From positions 1-25,641 of the IMG/VR virus record IMGVR_UViG_3300044731_001638: DNA of 25,641 nucleotides. The stretch is one strand, 5' to 3'. Positions 1 to 25,595 of this stretch are shown one piece after another. The DNA is from a virus. Made by a program: the position numbers and the translations under genes. Position 1 is the stretch's first letter, and the number at the start of each line of letters is the position of its first letter. A model generated the notes under the pieces. The model saw only the letters and a list, made by a program, of their open reading frames with translations. It ran no database searches and had not been told where the DNA came from.

Positions 1-115
1 GGCTTCAATTAATTTGTTACCTTATTAATCGCACTGCTTACTTCCACGCTGATGGCTAATCTTTACGTGGGTGAGATTCGCACTCACTGGTTCTTACGCA
101 CTTATCTTGGCGCAC
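1..115 (-). mobile_element. 5' end of a probable group II intron (partial, runs off the window)
   Basis: Read on the minus strand this stretch begins GTGCGCC at 115, matching the GUGCG(C/A) 5' consensus of bacterial group II introns. The following bases form three plausible stems: 71-75 with 83-87 (7-nt loop), 44-48 with 66-70, and 6-13 with 24-31 (8 bp, one G-U). G+C is about 45 percent by count, far above the roughly 25-30 percent around it, so the segment looks foreign. No open frame of useful length crosses it. The exon just upstream (minus sense) ends in an SD and ATG. The remaining domains and any reverse transcriptase/maturase gene would lie beyond base 1. An insertion sequence end or another structured RNA is the alternative; the class cannot be assigned from 115 bases. 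Confidence 0.6.
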
Positions 116-135
116 CATAAATACTCCTTTGTTAA
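116..135 (-). promoter_or_regulatory. Orphan ribosome binding site and ATG directly before the intron boundary
   Basis: On the minus strand AAAGGAG is followed, five bases later, by ATG at 118-116, and the intron-like sequence starts at the very next base. This is the start signal of a gene downstream of the tail fibre, where contractile phages usually carry a fibre assembly chaperone or a second fibre gene. Read straight through, the frame closes after 20 codons. The gene is therefore either interrupted by the intron or only expressed after splicing. The 70 bases between this site and the fibre stop codon are AT-rich and hold no clear terminator. Confidence 0.5.
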
Positions 136-205: not shown

Positions 206-1147
206 TTAATTTCCGATAAGTTCGATTTTAATTGAGCTTATTGTTTCATTTGATATTGCACATTTAAACCCATCAACTAATCTAAAGCCAATAGAAACAG
301 TTTGATTTTTATATAATTCCCTGCAAATTTTTCTTTTTAATGGGGCAAAATATTTTTTGTTTCTATTATCAATTATTTCAATAGTCCATCTTGCCAATGT
401 TACAACTTCCTGCAAATCTTTTCCGATATTAAAAATACAAAATAATTCAAAAACTGTTCCATTATTTAAATCAACGGCCTCTCCTGAAATATCGACATCA
501 ATCTCATAATTGCCATCATATTCAATTGTGTACGTGTCTCTTGAATCATTCCAATGATTATCTGTAAAACCATAAGCAAAATAATAGCTATTAAATTTTA
601 CCAAATTTTTTAAGTTATTATTTCCTATATATTCAACCCTATTTACAGTATCGGCATACATGTAAGTTTTTTTTTGTTTATCAGCATATTTTTTATTAAC
701 TAAATCAGTTAATTCTTTTGGCTCTTTATCCCATTTTAAATTGTCTGAATTAATTTCTATTATTTTTGAATTTAAAGTTATTTTATCTTCTTCTGCTATT
801 ACTGTAGATTTATCGGTTTCTGATTTTATTGCCTTCCTTTGTGCAATAATTTTTTTACTCATATCATCAACTAAATTTTTAAGTGAGTTATAAAATCCAG
901 TAATTGATCTATAGTTACTATCAATTACATTATTTACTCGCTTAATTTTTGATTCTATAGCTGTATTTAATTGAGTATAAATTTTTTTATCTAGTGTTAT
1001 TTTTTCTGATTCTATTACTGTAGCAATTTCTTCTTGCATAGAATTTAAAAATTCAGATGTTACTATAGTGCCGGGTGTGTTATCGGCTAAATTTCCGTCT
1101 GTAAATTTATTATCTTTTGTTGCTGTAGATCCTTCAATTCTTTGCAT
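206..1147 (-). CDS. Tail fibre protein, N-terminal attachment type
   Basis: 313 residues. The N-terminus (about residues 14-65) has the pattern FTDGNLADNTPGTIVT, then a helical stretch with QEEIATVIES and QLNTAIES. This is typical of the part of phage tail fibre proteins that attaches to the baseplate. The middle (about 90-160) looks like a helical shaft, and the C-terminal half has alternating beta-type residues, as expected of a receptor-binding region. It follows the gp48-type baseplate gene, the usual place for the fibre. An SD GGAG lies ten bases before the ATG. The C-terminal half is not one I recognise, which is normal for receptor-binding domains. It is short for a fibre, so a further fibre or chaperone gene probably lay downstream. 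Confidence 0.7.
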   Translation of the reverse strand: MQRIEGSTATKDNKFTDGNLADNTPGTIVTSEFLNSMQEEIATVIESEKITLDKKIYTQLNTAIESKIKRVNNVIDSNYRSITGFYNSLKNLVDDMSKKIIAQRKAIKSETDKSTVIAEEDKITLNSKIIEINSDNLKWDKEPKELTDLVNKKYADKQKKTYMYADTVNRVEYIGNNNLKNLVKFNSYYFAYGFTDNHWNDSRDTYTIEYDGNYEIDVDISGEAVDLNNGTVFELFCIFNIGKDLQEVVTLARWTIEIIDNRNKKYFAPLKRKICRELYKNQTVSIGFRLVDGFKCAISNETISSIKIELIGN

Positions 1148-1153
1148 TTTAAA

Positions 1154-1666
1154 TTAACTCCTAAATTTATAAATAAATAATAAATGGGCTGGCCTGCTAT
1201 ATTCCAAAGTTTCAATAATTAATAATTTGTTGTTTTGATCTGAAAATACAAAAATCACTTTATATTCATCGTTTGCTGAATAGCCTAAACTCTCTCCTGC
1301 ACGGCTAGAACCAGCTCTAAAATATTGAGCATTTGATTTTAAAATTTCTGAATTTTTATCTAAAGCTTTTGAAAGTGTTAAAAAATATTCGTATGTATTC
1401 CCACCGGTTGCCGCTAATTTTGCAACTAGAGAAATTCTTCTTTTATCTATTTCATTACTAATTGGAATTATTTGTAAAGAATCTTCCCAATCATCTATTG
1501 TTTGTATTGCTGTTAATGGGAAAGTTTCTATTAAAATATCATCCGTGCATTTTAAAACATTATTAAAAGCCGATGCTATACCATCTATTAATTTTAAAAA
1601 ATTTTTACCCTGCCAATAAATCCCTTCGGGAAGCAAGGATCTTATTATTAATTTAATATCATTCAT
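1154..1666 (-). CDS. Baseplate protein, Mu gp48 / P2 gpI / YmfQ (DUF2313) family
   Basis: 170 residues, close to the usual length of the Mu gp48 family. The N-terminus (LLPEGIYW) matches the family's opening LLP.G.aW pattern. The region 53-75 (AIQTIDDWEDSLQI) and the ATGGNTYEYF segment near residue 88 are also family-like: a D.WE motif followed by a glycine-rich turn. The C-terminus RPAHLLFIYKF resembles the P.H..v.F.Y end of these proteins. In Mu and P2 this protein sits between the wedge protein gpJ/gp47 and the fibre in the baseplate, and the gene order here is the same. It begins two bases after the stop codon of the gp47-type gene. Confidence 0.85.
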   Translation of the reverse strand: MNDIKLIIRSLLPEGIYWQGKNFLKLIDGIASAFNNVLKCTDDILIETFPLTAIQTIDDWEDSLQIIPISNEIDKRRISLVAKLAATGGNTYEYFLTLSKALDKNSEILKSNAQYFRAGSSRAGESLGYSANDEYKVIFVFSDQNNKLLIIETLEYSRPAHLLFIYKFRS

Positions 1667-1668
1667 AA

Positions 1669-2736
1669 TTAATCCATATTTTTAAATAAAATATTGCCTA
1701 AAGTATGTATTTGTATATTTGTTGTTTTAATATCTTCTTTAGGGTTAATAATAATAAAATCACTTGTACTAAAATAATTTTGTTGGATAGCAACAATAAA
1801 TTGATAAAAACTTATTGTTTTATTTGGTTCACCTTCGGATTTTATAACGTTCCTTAAAATATTCTTAATTTTATTTTGATTATCTAAATTATTATTTCTT
1901 AATTTAATCTCAAAATTTATTGCTAATGAGTTCAATATAAAAAGATTAAGTTTAGCATTTATTGGCATTTTGCTTAAAATAATATTTTTACTTTTCTCAA
2001 TTTCCTCAATACTTGGAAAAATATTTTCATTGTTATCTTTAACATAGGTTAAGCCAGAAAATCCCTCACTTGGAAAACAAGGAATACACCACGTTCTCGT
2101 TACCTCTGGCAATTCTTTTGCCCATCTTATATAGTCATCTTTATTGCCTGCGCATGGCGGTTTTCTTAAACGTTCTAAAAATCTTTTTCTCCAATTTTCA
2201 AGATCTTCTAAATCTGAGCCGCCATATGTTCCGTTTTGTGAAAGTCTGACTTCAAAATCTATATTATTAATAGGTGAAATTAAATTAAGTTTTGTAAATG
2301 GTTTTAAATTTCCGGAATTACCAGATTGCATAGCATAAATGGGTATATCAGTTATACCATTATCTTTAATTATGCCCTCTTCTGTCGTCTGAAATCTTAA
2401 ATTATTTTCTGTTTGTATTTTTGTGTAAATAGGGATTTTTGAACCGGATAAACCTTTAAATACAGCTTTACCCTGACTGTAAGTTGCATTCTTTCGTTGC
2501 ACATTATACAAATTAGCCCATCTTTGGAAAAATTTTTCTTCTGATTTATCGGGGAAAATTTGCTGTATAATCCATTGTATAAAAAGGTAAATTGGATAAG
2601 CTACACCTGCAATAACACGTGATAAAACTTTAATAACAGAATATAAAAAAACTTTTGAATTATTATCAAATCGAGAATAAAAATCGAGTTCAATTTGTTC
2701 AACTAATTCTTTGAATGTTGGAATTTTGTAAGCCAT
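1669..2736 (-). CDS. Baseplate wedge protein, Mu gp47 / P2 gpJ family
   Basis: Baseplate J-like protein of 355 residues, similar in length to Mu gp47. The N-terminal part has an IPTF.EL.....DF pattern, followed by GNSGNL, typical of family members just before the central beta domain. NGTYGGSDLEDLENWRKRFLERLRKPP, split around its SDLED and RFLERL elements, matches the G.D.E.de..R.R.l..... core, and the downstream DYIRWAKELPEVTR segment matches the Y..WA...pgV.ra core. The frame stays open upstream to a TTG at 2748, but the ATG at 2736 has a GGTGA SD five bases before it and starts MAYKIPTF like its relatives, so I take 2736. The start overlaps the end of the gp46-type gene. Confidence 0.88.
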   Translation of the reverse strand: MAYKIPTFKELVEQIELDFYSRFDNNSKVFLYSVIKVLSRVIAGVAYPIYLFIQWIIQQIFPDKSEEKFFQRWANLYNVQRKNATYSQGKAVFKGLSGSKIPIYTKIQTENNLRFQTTEEGIIKDNGITDIPIYAMQSGNSGNLKPFTKLNLISPINNIDFEVRLSQNGTYGGSDLEDLENWRKRFLERLRKPPCAGNKDDYIRWAKELPEVTRTWCIPCFPSEGFSGLTYVKDNNENIFPSIEEIEKSKNIILSKMPINAKLNLFILNSLAINFEIKLRNNNLDNQNKIKNILRNVIKSEGEPNKTISFYQFIVAIQQNYFSTSDFIIINPKEDIKTTNIQIHTLGNILFKNMD

Positions 2737-3157
2737 TATTGTCACCAAGGTTGTAATTTATTAAATCTATATTCCCTTGGTTACTGTAAACAGTAATACT
2801 AATTACAATTGCTTTTTTTTCAAAATGCGAATCAATTTCAATTTTGCTAACAATTTTTTCGTTTACTAATGGCTGTAGGGCTTGGATACAATAAGCATTT
2901 ATATCATTTAAAATATTATTTGTTTTTTTTGCTCTTTTAAGTAACCAAAGTTTTGAACCTAAATTTGTTTTATCAAAAGCATCTGCCCAAAAACCTTTTT
3001 TAGATTGCTCATATTCTGGTAATTCATAATTTTCACATCTAGTGTCTGTAAATAAAAGCATTCCGATTTTTGATTCAAGTGAATCACCAATAATATTATT
3101 AAGATCTAGATCAAAACATTTTTGTACATGATCATATTTAAAAATAATATCTTTCAT
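2699..3157 (-). CDS. Baseplate protein, Mu gp46 family
   Basis: 152 residues. The motif GFWADAFDKTNLGSKLWLLK (about residues 56-75) is the hallmark R.GwW.D....G.rLWll.R of the Mu gp46 family, the Mu counterpart of the P2 gpW / T4 gp25 wedge protein. The N-terminus ends a beta region with LLFTDTRCE, as in relatives that carry LlTDrRa. The gene sits immediately before gp47 and overlaps it by 38 bases, and its ATG overlaps the stop of the preceding unknown gene (ATGA), suggesting coupled translation. Confidence 0.85.
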   Translation of the reverse strand: MKDIIFKYDHVQKCFDLDLNNIIGDSLESKIGMLLFTDTRCENYELPEYEQSKKGFWADAFDKTNLGSKLWLLKRAKKTNNILNDINAYCIQALQPLVNEKIVSKIEIDSHFEKKAIVISITVYSNQGNIDLINYNLGDNNGLQNSNIQRIS

Positions 3158-3534
3158 TTTTTATTCCAACTTATTTCAAATTTTAACCCAACAGGTATTG
3201 ATTTAATAGAAAATAAATCAATTAAATATTGCACTTTATAAGAAGTATTATAATCTAAACTATTAAAATATAATACTAAGTTATCTAGTTTATTTTCTTT
3301 GTATAGCATTGCTAAAAATTTTCTTACATCATCGTAGCGATAAATATCAGAAAAAAATACATCATAATTTAAAATAAACTTTTTATTTCTAGTAGCTTCT
3401 TCTATATAAAATGCAAAATTTTCTAATTCATTACAATATTTATTTTTAAAGATTTCAATAGTCCTTATATTAAAATTAAAAGGGTTATTAATATATTCTT
3501 GTGTTTTTTTATAAGCTTCTTCGGCTGTAATCAT
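3154..3534 (-). CDS. Unknown protein in the baseplate operon (126 aa)
   Basis: I do not recognise a family. The protein is rich in aromatic residues (Tyr, Phe), lysine and asparagine, appears mostly helical, and has no signal peptide or membrane segment. An SD AAGGA lies eight bases before the ATG, and the stop overlaps the start of the gp46-type gene. It lies between the spike module and gp46, where Mu has no gene, so it is either a lineage-specific baseplate part or an inserted accessory gene. Codon and base use match its neighbours. Confidence 0.75.
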   Translation of the reverse strand: MITAEEAYKKTQEYINNPFNFNIRTIEIFKNKYCNELENFAFYIEEATRNKKFILNYDVFFSDIYRYDDVRKFLAMLYKENKLDNLVLYFNSLDYNTSYKVQYLIDLFSIKSIPVGLKFEISWNKK

Positions 3535-3754: not shown

Positions 3755-4396
3755 TTATTTAAATGTATCTAATTTTGCTTTTAATTTAATAATTTCAGGA
3801 GCAGAATTTAAAAGCATTGCTCCCATTAAAGTATTTGTTGTTGATATTGATAAAATTTGAAAAAGCTCTGATAGAATTTCTATTAATTCACCAGCATCAT
3901 TTTTAACAGAAAATTTACTTGTTTTTATTGTTGTATTTTTTGTTTCTATTTTAAAATTTGATTCAGAAGTTATAAAAAAATCTTTAGTTGCAAACGTTAT
4001 TTTGTTTTCGCTTTGCACATCCAAAGTTTTTGTTTTGATTTCAATCAAATTTTCTTTTTTAAAATAGATGTGATCCTTCTCTATTGTGTAAATACAAACC
4101 TCGCCTATTTTAAGCCCTGTAGGGCGTGAATCTTTATCTTCTGTAGCTACAATATAGCCGGACTCACGCTCGCCACCATGAAACAAACAAATCCCCTCCG
4201 AGCCGTTAGGGGGTACGCTAGTAATTCCGTAATTTTGCCAGCGTTCTAAATTTTCCCTAGGATCGTCTTTGAAAAATTCGCACTGTGCCGTTTGTGTATT
4301 AGTTTCATCATTTGTTTTATTTATTGAGCAAATAGATATTATCGAAACAATTCTTTCATACAATGGGCTTGTAATTTTACGAATTAAGTCTTGCAT
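3755..4396 (-). CDS. Baseplate spike / assembly protein, Mu gp45 (gpV-like) family
   Basis: 213 residues, close to Mu gp45 (central spike that pierces the outer membrane). Features: an early conserved tail region around ERWQNYGITSVPPNGSEGI (about residues 50-68), then an OB-type beta domain. A C-terminal stretch (about 110-175) has regularly alternating hydrophobic residues (KENLIEIKTKTLDVQ, then NKITFATKDFFITS and FKIETKNTTIK), as expected of the triple-stranded beta-helix. The ATG overlaps the gpP-type stop as TAATG. The C-terminal 35 residues are helical, and no HxH iron-binding tip motif is visible, so the tip may be supplied by another protein, perhaps the 63-aa neighbour. Confidence 0.85.
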   Translation of the reverse strand: MQDLIRKITSPLYERIVSIISICSINKTNDETNTQTAQCEFFKDDPRENLERWQNYGITSVPPNGSEGICLFHGGERESGYIVATEDKDSRPTGLKIGEVCIYTIEKDHIYFKKENLIEIKTKTLDVQSENKITFATKDFFITSESNFKIETKNTTIKTSKFSVKNDAGELIEILSELFQILSISTTNTLMGAMLLNSAPEIIKLKAKLDTFK

Positions 4397-5430
4397 TATA
4401 CACTCATTTCCTCGCCAATTTTTGAAGAATTTCTCTCCTCTGTAGGGTTGTATGCGTCTTTGATAACAAGTTTTAATTCTGTTTTAAATCCATTTTCGTC
4501 AAATATAAAATTAGTTTCTTCAATTAAAAAATCACCTTTTAATTTAAATACAGGATAATCAATATTAACTAGTGTATTTATTTCCCAAATTTTACCATCT
4601 TCATATTCCCAACTTGGTAACTCAATGCTTAATGAAAAAGCTTTGGCAATTTGTTTTGCCATTTCCCATTTTGCACGCTCTTTGGCTTCATTTAATGTTA
4701 TTGATTTTGTAATTGGAACTTGTTTAACTCGTGGCCTTTTTACGCTATTATCAATTACTTCAGCTATTTCTTTTTTGTGTTTGTTTTTAGGACTTCCTAC
4801 ATTTACATAAACTCTATATGTTTGAAATTTTTCTGAATCTTTTTGTGTAAAATTTATTGAACTTATATTTTCACCTTGTTTTAAACTTGTTACTACAGAG
4901 CTTGCAACGTCTGAAAAAATAATGCCGCCATCATGATCTGGATAGGCTAACACACCCTGATATTTTGCTAATTTTGAAATTGATTCCCATATTGTTTCGT
5001 TTTGTTGTAAAGATATATTATTTATTATTGAATTACTTTTATTTGATTTTCCGGAAACATTTATACCAAATGGGCTTGCTAAAGTTTCAGCCATAAATTT
5101 TAAACTTACATTTTTAAATGATCGATTATTATTTGTGTTAGCTGAATCAACAAGATCTCCTGTTTTGTCTCTTCCAGTAATATCAAAACTTATAGAACTT
5201 TCATCTAGTGAATTACTAATCTCATCTATATAACCCGTAATCAAAGGCTTATCTTTAAACAATAAAGTACAAAGATCATCATTGCTTAAGTAATCTGTTG
5301 GGTTTATTGGATCATCAATATTTGAGGTGTAGGATATTTCAAATTTACCAGAAATTGCGGCAAGAGAACGAGTAACTTTAACATTTAGCCAGTTATCAAA
5401 TATATAATTATTTACTTTTAACCTTATCAT
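4396..5430 (-). CDS. Baseplate hub protein, Mu gpP / P2 gpD-like
   Basis: 344 residues, the length of Mu gpP (379) and similar hub proteins that form the ring between tube and spike. The N-terminus has the family pattern of a beta domain with NNYIFDNWLNVKVTRSL and SGKFEISYTS, then LITGYIDE (residues about 64-71) and SFDITGRDKTGDLVD, which correspond to v.TGyid......s..i.GRd.TgDLvDcs. The middle shows IWESISKLAKYQGVLAYPDHDGGIIF, matching the family's ....la...Gvl...d..G.l.f. Translation begins inside the end of the gpN-type gene, with GAGG nine bases upstream of the ATG. Confidence 0.88.
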   Translation of the reverse strand: MIRLKVNNYIFDNWLNVKVTRSLAAISGKFEISYTSNIDDPINPTDYLSNDDLCTLLFKDKPLITGYIDEISNSLDESSISFDITGRDKTGDLVDSANTNNNRSFKNVSLKFMAETLASPFGINVSGKSNKSNSIINNISLQQNETIWESISKLAKYQGVLAYPDHDGGIIFSDVASSVVTSLKQGENISSINFTQKDSEKFQTYRVYVNVGSPKNKHKKEIAEVIDNSVKRPRVKQVPITKSITLNEAKERAKWEMAKQIAKAFSLSIELPSWEYEDGKIWEINTLVNIDYPVFKLKGDFLIEETNFIFDENGFKTELKLVIKDAYNPTEERNSSKIGEEMSV

Positions 5431-6745
5431 CTAAAATTACCTCAATAAAGTCTCCTTCATTTAAAAATAAAGGATTTTTAATATTATTAAGGTAAACAAT
5501 ATCATCTATGTTATTTAGTGTTTCAAAATTTTCAAAACAGAAGTTAAATATTGTCTGGTCTTTTTTTAAGGCGTATTTATTTATAGATGGAATTTCATCT
5601 GAGATGGAACTTAAAGCGTTATATGTATTTATTCTTAATTCATACAAAGATTTAAACACATCGCTTGATATTGTTGGATCATTCATTAGTTGATCGATTT
5701 TATTTATAAGGTTGTCTCTAATTTTATTAGCTTCATTGATATTTATAAAAGTTGCTTCTGTAGTGGCAAAGTTACAAGCTGATGCTATTACATGGGTTTG
5801 CATTAATTTTTCAATTTCTTTTATATTTGTATCTGTATCACTTTTTTGTAATTTATTGGTATAAATTCTTTCGTATTCTAAAAGAATTTCCTTTGTCTCA
5901 TTTGCTTTTTCTATTTTATTTTTATTATCATTATTACTTTTAAATTCCATCATGCTAGGTAAAACAAGTGCAGAAATCGCTTGAGGTAAAGCCTTTGACG
6001 CTTCGGAATTATTTAATAATCTATTAAAAGATTCAAGAACCCCATCTATTAAATCAGCCGTAAAACTAGGAATATTTGAAACCCGATCTATCATGGATTT
6101 TGCATTGTAAACTAAATAAGTGAAATCTGTTCCTATCTGTGCTACAGAAGCAATAAAACCTTCAACATCTCTAACAGAATCTACTACATCTGAAATTGCT
6201 TTTTGAGCATCATAAATTTTTGATGATGTTTCTTTAACAAGATCTTTAACAAAGCCATATGATTCTTTAAATGCTTTTAATGCATTAAATTTAGTATCCT
6301 TTGTTGAATTTTCAACCAAAGCTTTTGTATTTATTTTTGGTTTTATGGCAATGTTTTTGCTTGATTCAACAAATTCAAATTCTATAGAACATTTACCTAT
6401 TTTTGTATTCTCTTCTGATATAGAAACCTTTTGACAAAAAACAATAAGTCGTCCTAAAAATGGGTGTATTAATTCACCTTCAACCCCATCTTCAATTAGT
6501 TTTTTTAAATTATCTCTTATTTTAAAAACATTTTTACCAATAATAAATCCTTTAACTTTAAAAGAAGCTTGCATTTTTCCAAATTTTTGGATTACAAATT
6601 TATTATTAAAAGGAAAAGATTTTAAAGAATTTCTATGGCCAAACTCGCTATTATGGCTTTCAATTTCAAAATATATTCCTAAGAAACAAGCTTCTTCTAA
6701 TTCTTGTTCAAAAGGCTTAAATCCTTCTAGCTCTAAATTTTCCAT
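5408..6745 (-). CDS. DNA circularisation / baseplate protein, Mu gpN family
   Basis: 445 residues. Residues about 10-130 match the DNA_circ_N domain of Mu gpN: LGIYFEIESHNSEFGHRN, then FVIQKFGKMQASFKVKGFIIG, then LIEDGVEGELIHPFLGRLIVFC. The last element is the G.G.L.HP..G...v signature. In Mu the protein is essential for tail assembly and is associated with the baseplate; the circularisation name comes from a related Shigella phage protein. The remaining 300 residues are mainly helical and variable. It lies between the tape measure and gpP as in Mu. Its SD is weak (AAGAGA), so expression may depend on coupling to the tape measure gene 12 bases upstream. Confidence 0.85.
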   Translation of the reverse strand: MENLELEGFKPFEQELEEACFLGIYFEIESHNSEFGHRNSLKSFPFNNKFVIQKFGKMQASFKVKGFIIGKNVFKIRDNLKKLIEDGVEGELIHPFLGRLIVFCQKVSISEENTKIGKCSIEFEFVESSKNIAIKPKINTKALVENSTKDTKFNALKAFKESYGFVKDLVKETSSKIYDAQKAISDVVDSVRDVEGFIASVAQIGTDFTYLVYNAKSMIDRVSNIPSFTADLIDGVLESFNRLLNNSEASKALPQAISALVLPSMMEFKSNNDNKNKIEKANETKEILLEYERIYTNKLQKSDTDTNIKEIEKLMQTHVIASACNFATTEATFININEANKIRDNLINKIDQLMNDPTISSDVFKSLYELRINTYNALSSISDEIPSINKYALKKDQTIFNFCFENFETLNNIDDIVYLNNIKNPLFLNEGDFIEVILDDKVKSK

Positions 6746-16531: not shown

Positions 16532-17389
16532 TTAATAAGAGAGATTAATTAAAATATCCTCAATGTTTTTCACTCGAATTGCGCCCAAAGCCTCTAATTC
16601 ATGTGGCCATTGCAAATTAGAATTTTCAAAATTATTATTTAATATAAATAATGGCCTGCCCTGTTTTAAGACAGTCCTAGCATTTGATAAAGTCCCTGAT
16701 CTGTCCCTTGCTTCCACAATTATTGTCCCATTTGCTAGGGCTGACATAGTTTTGTTTCTTTCAATAAAAAATCTTTTTTTAAAAGGAATTTTTAATCGCT
16801 CATATATAATAAATGGAACCTGTGAAATTAAAAGATGATTTTTAGCAATTTCATTCATTAAATCTTTATTATTTAATGGGTAACAATGATTTAAGGATGT
16901 TCCTATTACTGCAATTGTTTGACCATTTTCTTCTAGACAAGCTTTATGTGCGGCAGTGTCTATACCTTCGGCAAGCCCCGAAATAATTACAAAACCTTTT
17001 TTTACTAACATTTTTGATATTTTTGATGCTCTTTTTAAGCCTTCATTGCTTGCGTCTCTTGACCCAATAATTGCAATTGATGGCTTATTTATTAGTTCAT
17101 ATTTACCCATATAATATAATAAATATAACTTAGTATTTAAATCTAAAAGTTTTTTCGGATAATTATCTTTACCATAAATAATAGATTCGAAAGAATTTAA
17201 ATCTTTTGTCATACTTTTTATTTCTTCAAAATATTTTAAGGCAATATCTTCTTTTACTAATTCTTTAATTGAATCACTATCTATAAAGTTTTCTTCTATC
17301 ATTTTAAAAGAATCTGTTAACTGATAATAGTGATTTATTTCTTGTTCAAAAAAAGCTTCGTATCTTCCTATTTCTAATTTATTATTCAT
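16532..17389 (-). CDS. dprA: DprA/Smf-type DNA processing protein
   Basis: 285 residues. The Rossmann-type core is clear: IAIIGSRDAS (about 105-114, GSR motif), FVIISGLAEGIDTAAHKACL (133-152), TIAVIGTSLNHCYPLNN (158-174), FFIERNKTMSALANGTIIVE (207-226) and SGTLSNARTVLKQGRPLFIL (231-250). These are the conserved motifs of DprA, which binds ssDNA and loads RecA during natural transformation. The C-terminal winged-helix domain of many DprA proteins is absent; the N-terminal 100 residues are helical. The start overlaps the previous gene as ATGA. Phage copies of dprA are known, including in Wolbachia phages, but their task in the virus cycle is unclear: it may be recombination or protection of entering DNA. 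Confidence 0.9.
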   Translation of the reverse strand: MNNKLEIGRYEAFFEQEINHYYQLTDSFKMIEENFIDSDSIKELVKEDIALKYFEEIKSMTKDLNSFESIIYGKDNYPKKLLDLNTKLYLLYYMGKYELINKPSIAIIGSRDASNEGLKRASKISKMLVKKGFVIISGLAEGIDTAAHKACLEENGQTIAVIGTSLNHCYPLNNKDLMNEIAKNHLLISQVPFIIYERLKIPFKKRFFIERNKTMSALANGTIIVEARDRSGTLSNARTVLKQGRPLFILNNNFENSNLQWPHELEALGAIRVKNIEDILINLSY

Positions 17390-24848: not shown

Positions 24849-25595
24849 TTATTTTAGACTCATTATTAAACCATTATTGCCATCAATAATTTGTGGCATC
24901 TTGCCATCCCACTTTTTAATCATTTCCATTTGTATAATTTTGGGATTATCTGAAACTGCTTTTCCGAGAATTTCGGCAGATTTTGCTTCGGCTTGGGCAC
25001 GAATAATTTTTGTTTGTGCATCAATTTTAGCTTGTTCTTGTAGAAATTTAGACTTCTCGGCTTCTTGTTCTTGGATCATTTTAGATTCAATTGCTTTTTC
25101 TAGCGAGTCCGATAGTTCTGTGTCTTCAATAACAACATCTGTTAAATTTACTAAATTATTAAGTTTTAATTTTGAGAGTTCAAGAACTCTTTTTTTGATA
25201 TCATCTCTTTGTTTAACAATATTTTCAGCGGTTTTTGTGGAAGTAATTTCTTTTAGTGCTTCAATAACTTTCGGAATAACAAAATTATCAACTACGTTGC
25301 CGTTGTAGTTTATTAAAATATTTTTGACTGAGTTATCTGGAATTTCATATTGAATTCTTATTTTGGTTTTAACTGGCTGCAAATCGGAAGAGTAGACATT
25401 CACTTCTTTTTCGATTGATTGATTAGCAATAGAAAGTTTTAATATTTCCGTGCCAAATGGATTATAAAAGTACATTCCTTCTTTATAAACTATGTTACTA
25501 GGTTTACCGAATTTTACTTCAATGCTTCTTTGCATTGGCTCATTTTGGTGGCAGGAAGCAACTAATAAAGGTAATATATAAATTAATTTTTTCAT
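24849..25595 (-). CDS. Prohibitin/SPFH-like lipoprotein
   Basis: 248 residues. Signal: KK, then LIYILPLLVAS with Cys15 in a lipobox (VASC), so it is probably lipid-anchored. Residues about 20-170 follow the prohibitin-type SPFH (band 7) fold: GMYFYNPFGTEIL, then VYSSDLQPVKTKIRIQYEI, then VIPKVIEALKEITSTKTAEN with KQRDDIKKRVLE, and LTDVVIEDTELSDSLEKAIE. An Ala/Glu/Lys coiled coil follows (AQTKIIRAQAEAKSAEILG). Host prohibitin-type proteins control the FtsH protease and membrane domains. A phage copy may affect FtsH, lysis timing or superinfection. An SD AAGGA stands nine bases upstream of the ATG. Confidence 0.85.
   Translation of the reverse strand: MKKLIYILPLLVASCHQNEPMQRSIEVKFGKPSNIVYKEGMYFYNPFGTEILKLSIANQSIEKEVNVYSSDLQPVKTKIRIQYEIPDNSVKNILINYNGNVVDNFVIPKVIEALKEITSTKTAENIVKQRDDIKKRVLELSKLKLNNLVNLTDVVIEDTELSDSLEKAIESKMIQEQEAEKSKFLQEQAKIDAQTKIIRAQAEAKSAEILGKAVSDNPKIIQMEMIKKWDGKMPQIIDGNNGLIMSLK

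Follow-up and report, generated by a model that had tools for sequence, protein, structure and literature searches.

What begins on the very base that follows a start codon at the edge of this phage contig, and how did it come to lie there? The stretch analysed here, which we call the window, is a complete virus record of 25,641 bases (IMGVR_UViG_3300044731_001638); base 1 is the contig end, so nothing exists beyond it. A first-pass annotation had read its outermost 115 bases as the beginning of a group II intron, inserted directly behind the start codon of a tail gene, and most of that reading holds. The minus strand of the segment opens with GTGCGCC (115-109), which matches both the GUGYG 5' end of group II introns and the GUGCGCC consensus that had been pointed out. 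It directly follows AGGAG-N5-ATG, so that a Shine-Dalgarno (SD) motif and a start codon abut the intron as described (Table 1). The G+C content is indeed raised (44.3% at 1-115 against 28.0% for the whole window), to a value attained by only 0.6% of the window's 115-base stretches. In a covariance-model search of the 115 bases alone, the sole Rfam match was RF02005 (group-II-D1D4-6; 38.6 bits, E=6.6e-10), which covers model positions 1-81, is cut by the contig end and lies below the gathering score of 49. Over the matched part of the model, the segment has the domain I structure of a recognised class. A scan of the whole window at gathering thresholds reported zero families, and the folding energy of the 115 bases by itself is unremarkable (z=-1.58). 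Positions 1 to 115 are the 5' end of a group II intron sited right after SD and ATG. An insertion-sequence end is ruled out by the RF02005 match together with the full-length intron relatives described below.

Table 1. Features at and next to the intron junction in the window.
Feature	Position	Strand	Basis
Group II intron, 5' part (start of domain I)	1..115	minus	RF02005 match, identity to Rickettsiales introns, copy in L003; cut at contig end
ATG start codon, terminus of the 5' exon	116..118	minus	Sequence; same TTTATG in L003; ATG placed as in relatives
Predicted IBS1, TTTATG	121-116	minus	Same TTTATG adjoins the same intron in L003
Shine-Dalgarno AGGAG, 5 nt 5' of the ATG	124..128	minus	Sequence
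Predicted IBS2	overlapping AGGAG 124..128	minus	Position inferred from relatives (exon -12..-8 pairs with EBS2)
Short tail fibre gene, directly upstream of the interrupted gene	206..1147	minus	phrog_2617 short tail fiber, E=1.6e-18

Scanning IMG/VR for exact copies of the first 22 intron bases recovered two further contigs, L002 and L003. The former is the same phage as the window, with the same junction. In the latter, the intron start is identical to that of the window over 90 nt and the flanks are different: the 5' exon reads TAAGGAAATTTTATG in L003 and AAAGGAGTATTTATG in the window, and L003 has a terminase of another family. Around the junction the two share 97% identity over 104 bases including exon; over the rest of the 4 kb compared, any matches were very weak. 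Both 5' exons end in an SD and TTTATG at the first base of the intron. Since the intron meets two unrelated 5' exons at an identical base, the exon/intron boundary is fixed and mobility is indicated.

All three contigs (window, L002, L003) stop within the intron, as would be expected of a multi-copy repeat. The same breaks, in every intron-bearing contig from the exact scan and with no contig here spanning an entire copy, would also fit a chimeric contig end, in which the assembler fused phage DNA to a bacterial intron repeat common to several replicons of the same sample. We consider such an artefact highly improbable, because the phage-intron junction recurs in L002, because the unrelated L003 has the intron at an equally specific SD and TTTATG, and because complete copies in Wolbachia-type phage contigs occupy the same kind of site; moreover, a chimera would not be expected to join exactly on a start codon. 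That the window holds a dead fragment, either as a 5' part alone or next to a pseudogene whose ATG has no role, also seems improbable. The window scan reveals no D5/D6 or reverse transcriptase (RT) up to the contig end at base 1, and some Rickettsiales copies are disrupted or rearranged, but 90 identical bases in two unrelated phages imply that a working element, or one mobilised in trans, has moved recently. BLAST of 125 bases against plasmid and phage records gave no matches, and a search for a D5-bearing contig with the missing 3' half returned only the relatives already known and other lineages.

The head, tail and packaging genes of the phage (1150-23750) are colinear with those of the contractile-tailed Silvanigrella phage CP017837 (54% amino acid identity for the terminase and 58% for the portal), followed in the terminase comparison by Wolbachia WO phages at about 42%. 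The portal and terminase genes flank a DprA-like gene (16532-17389; PF02481, E=9.8e-59), and a gene for a Band_7/SPFH-domain protein (24849-25595) occupies the right contig end. The interrupted gene had been proposed to be a tail gene; the intron and the start codon stand, but the tail-gene identity is not established, the downstream gene being off the contig. A search with the fibre protein found no relative except the same phage, and the genes that follow the fibre in the Silvanigrella phage gave no family match, so that the downstream gene cannot be inferred from them.

The nearest relatives found are Rickettsiales introns. RF02005 matches occurred in 35 of 263 Rickettsiales genomes, 22 of 398 from Pseudomonadota, 43 of 237 from another phylum and none of 14 control genomes. 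At the DNA level, 10 of the 263 Rickettsiales genomes matched, at 72-77% identity where the first 74-85 bases are covered; none of 385 genomes drawn from the class did so, in a scan that lacked a positive control. The complete relatives measure about 1.9 kb, carry an RT/maturase (TIGR04416) and D5/D6 (RF00029), and score 117-140 bits to RF02005. The same RT type is encoded by eight viral loci; some complete relatives lie in Wolbachia WO-type phage contigs, and the 3' exons of two viral loci match Wolbachia WO phages at about 91-93%. The window copy resembles these Rickettsiales introns, including those of Wolbachia-type phages, in primary sequence (72-77% over the first 74-116 nt), in its 5' GUGCGCC and in D1 architecture; it differs in being cut by the contig end and in residing in a phage whose nearest relative is the Silvanigrella phage and not WO. 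In one Wolbachia-type phage contig (L157), two intron copies (1575-3483 and 4002-5894) interrupt two genes, both after ATG plus one base. One genome contains three identical 1,918-nt introns with exchanged flanks (L092, L093, L094), the 3' exon of one copy matching the reverse complement of the 5' exon of another, which suggests recombination between intron copies. A different type of group II intron, D1D4-4, is found in a 73-kb viral contig (L168, 6631-8618), with a possible 5' end after CCCCATG.

Joining the exons of complete relatives restores reading frames that start at the exon ATG. In L111 the N-terminus of the product (MAIILLDTKTINRIA...) identifies it as MutL, and it has the ATPase fold that MutL should have (PF02518); in L155 it is a tail sheath (MTEQFLHGVNVIEI..., phrog_23) and in L157 a capsid E protein (MKNPFTNTAFSM..., PF03864). 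Two more joined exons yield open reading frames of 166 and 208 aa from the exon ATG. Intron-free versions of two sites exist in Wolbachia phages: the annotated start of the WOVitA1 tail sheath gene lies exactly 7 nt before the 3' exon match, and that of WO gp20 exactly 4 nt before it. At both empty sites the annotated start is the predicted ATG. By these comparisons, the genes interrupted in the relatives truly begin at the exon ATG.

We compiled 28 distinct insertion sites of the lineage, not all of them independent (L048 and L156, for example, share a site). An ATG ends 0-4 nt before the junction at 17 of the 28, and an SD-like 4-mer lies at a suitable distance at 24. Both occur together at 16/28 sites, as against 1.2% of positions in flanking DNA (binomial p about 4e-24, a value inflated by related sites). 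The preference is not absolute, since insertion sites without a start codon occur as well (L097/L049, L050, L064, L102). Among 12 other RF02005 introns viewed by eye, most are not inserted at a start codon, and the preference appears to be concentrated in the Rickettsiales lineage. A sister subfamily (GTGCGCCACG; L098, L099, L100, L106, L107) is repeatedly found at one motif resembling transposase coding sequence, pointing to a different target preference.

How such sites could be recognised was approached through the exon-binding sites (EBS) of the relatives. Their introns were aligned and scored for pairing with the intron-binding sites (IBS) against permuted exons, the EBS registers having been picked as the best-scoring ones before permutation. 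The best EBS1/IBS1 register pairs exon -6..-1 (score 0.84 versus 0.48 for permuted exons), and the EBS2/IBS2 register pairs exon -12..-8 (0.71 versus 0.48); for each, 0/1000 permutations equalled the score. In introns inserted at start codons, the EBS1 sequences include GCAUAU, UCAUAU, CCAUAA and ACAUUU, and most of them set CAU against the AUG. Where the target has an SD, EBS2 is in most cases rich in pyrimidines (UUCUC, UUUCC, UACUC, UACCU). The introns inserted elsewhere (L049, L050, L158) have different EBS, which fit their own sites. Such matching changes at non-ATG sites are what one would expect if the placement were a by-product, with any EBS-pairing site being used and SD plus ATG fitting without selection for gene starts. 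We judge this account credible but unlikely: most EBS1 align a CAU with the AUG, the spacing to the SD is roughly constant, both signals are present at 16 of the 28 sites, and insertion strikes different genes at one position with respect to their start. The EBS positions (columns 169 and 197 of the relatives' alignment) fall past the 115 bases of the window.

What becomes of the interrupted gene may depend on the other end of the intron. In both copies of L157 and in L155, L111 and L103, the intron 3' end bears an SD-like stretch together with an AUG that is in frame with the 3' exon and begins 16 nt before the end of the intron; translation from this AUG would extend the same protein by, for example, MTSTK- or MISTR-. 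This AUG falls on the 3' side of the predicted D6 helix, and the pairing of D6 may therefore constrain it; on sequence grounds, the SD is the less expected part of the two. The intron of L153, which directly follows an ATG, in another frame, is without the D6 AUG, and the window intron likewise directly follows its ATG. The first-pass annotation had held that tail-gene expression would depend on splicing. This is plausible and maybe too strict, as introns of the relatives bear an in-frame SD and AUG at their 3' end.

We therefore favour, with a probability of roughly 0.85, a mobile D1D4-6-type intron from a lineage with exon-binding sites adapted to translation-initiation regions, the window copy being its 5' end. 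EBS2 would pair with the SD, and EBS1 with the bases that lead up to and include the start codon. The intron RNP would recognise SD and AUG as DNA and reverse-splice into unrelated genes, at their ATG or just behind it, and the host gene would be kept alive by splicing, by the start in D6, or by both. The EBS, RT and D5/D6 of the window copy probably resemble those of its relatives, and the downstream gene is presumably expressed through splicing or from a start supplied by the intron.

That phages, those of endosymbionts among them, harbour group II introns has already been published (PMC12350094). Those introns resemble the present one in their setting (tailed phages, among them endosymbiont phages and IMG/VR contigs) and in matching the same Rfam models; a text search of the main text of that paper found no start-codon or SD targeting. 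Also known is the intron at the stop codon of Azotobacter groEL, of the lineage of Michel et al. 2007 as cited in PMC4465626; it likewise represents a group II lineage at a gene-edge codon, where damage to the host gene would be limited. It differs in using a stop codon and not SD plus start codon, and its lineage shares a large insertion at the 5' extremity, of which the 115 bases of the window show no sign. SD and AUG targeting was not described in the open literature searched, in which Michel et al. 2007 and Leclercq et al. 2011 (on a Wolbachia intron) were represented by citation only. Phage group II introns are known, then, and targeting of the start codon appears to be new.

Bacterial group II introns usually limit harm by inserting downstream of terminators or within other mobile elements. 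A lineage that targets SD and AUG would have very many potential sites per genome, at the one position of a gene where a replacement start can preserve function. Tentatively, and at somewhat less than even odds, the lineage may have evolved to use bacterial translation-initiation signals as a DNA address, with EBS2 mimicking the anti-SD of 16S rRNA and EBS1 the initiator anticodon. The replacement SD and AUG in domain VI would let the interrupted gene be translated whether spliced or not, and the intron could spread among endosymbionts and phages by way of gene starts. Such targeting would provide a simple and testable rule for the invasion of phage structural genes and endosymbiont genomes by introns, and it suggests natural targetrons directed at gene starts.
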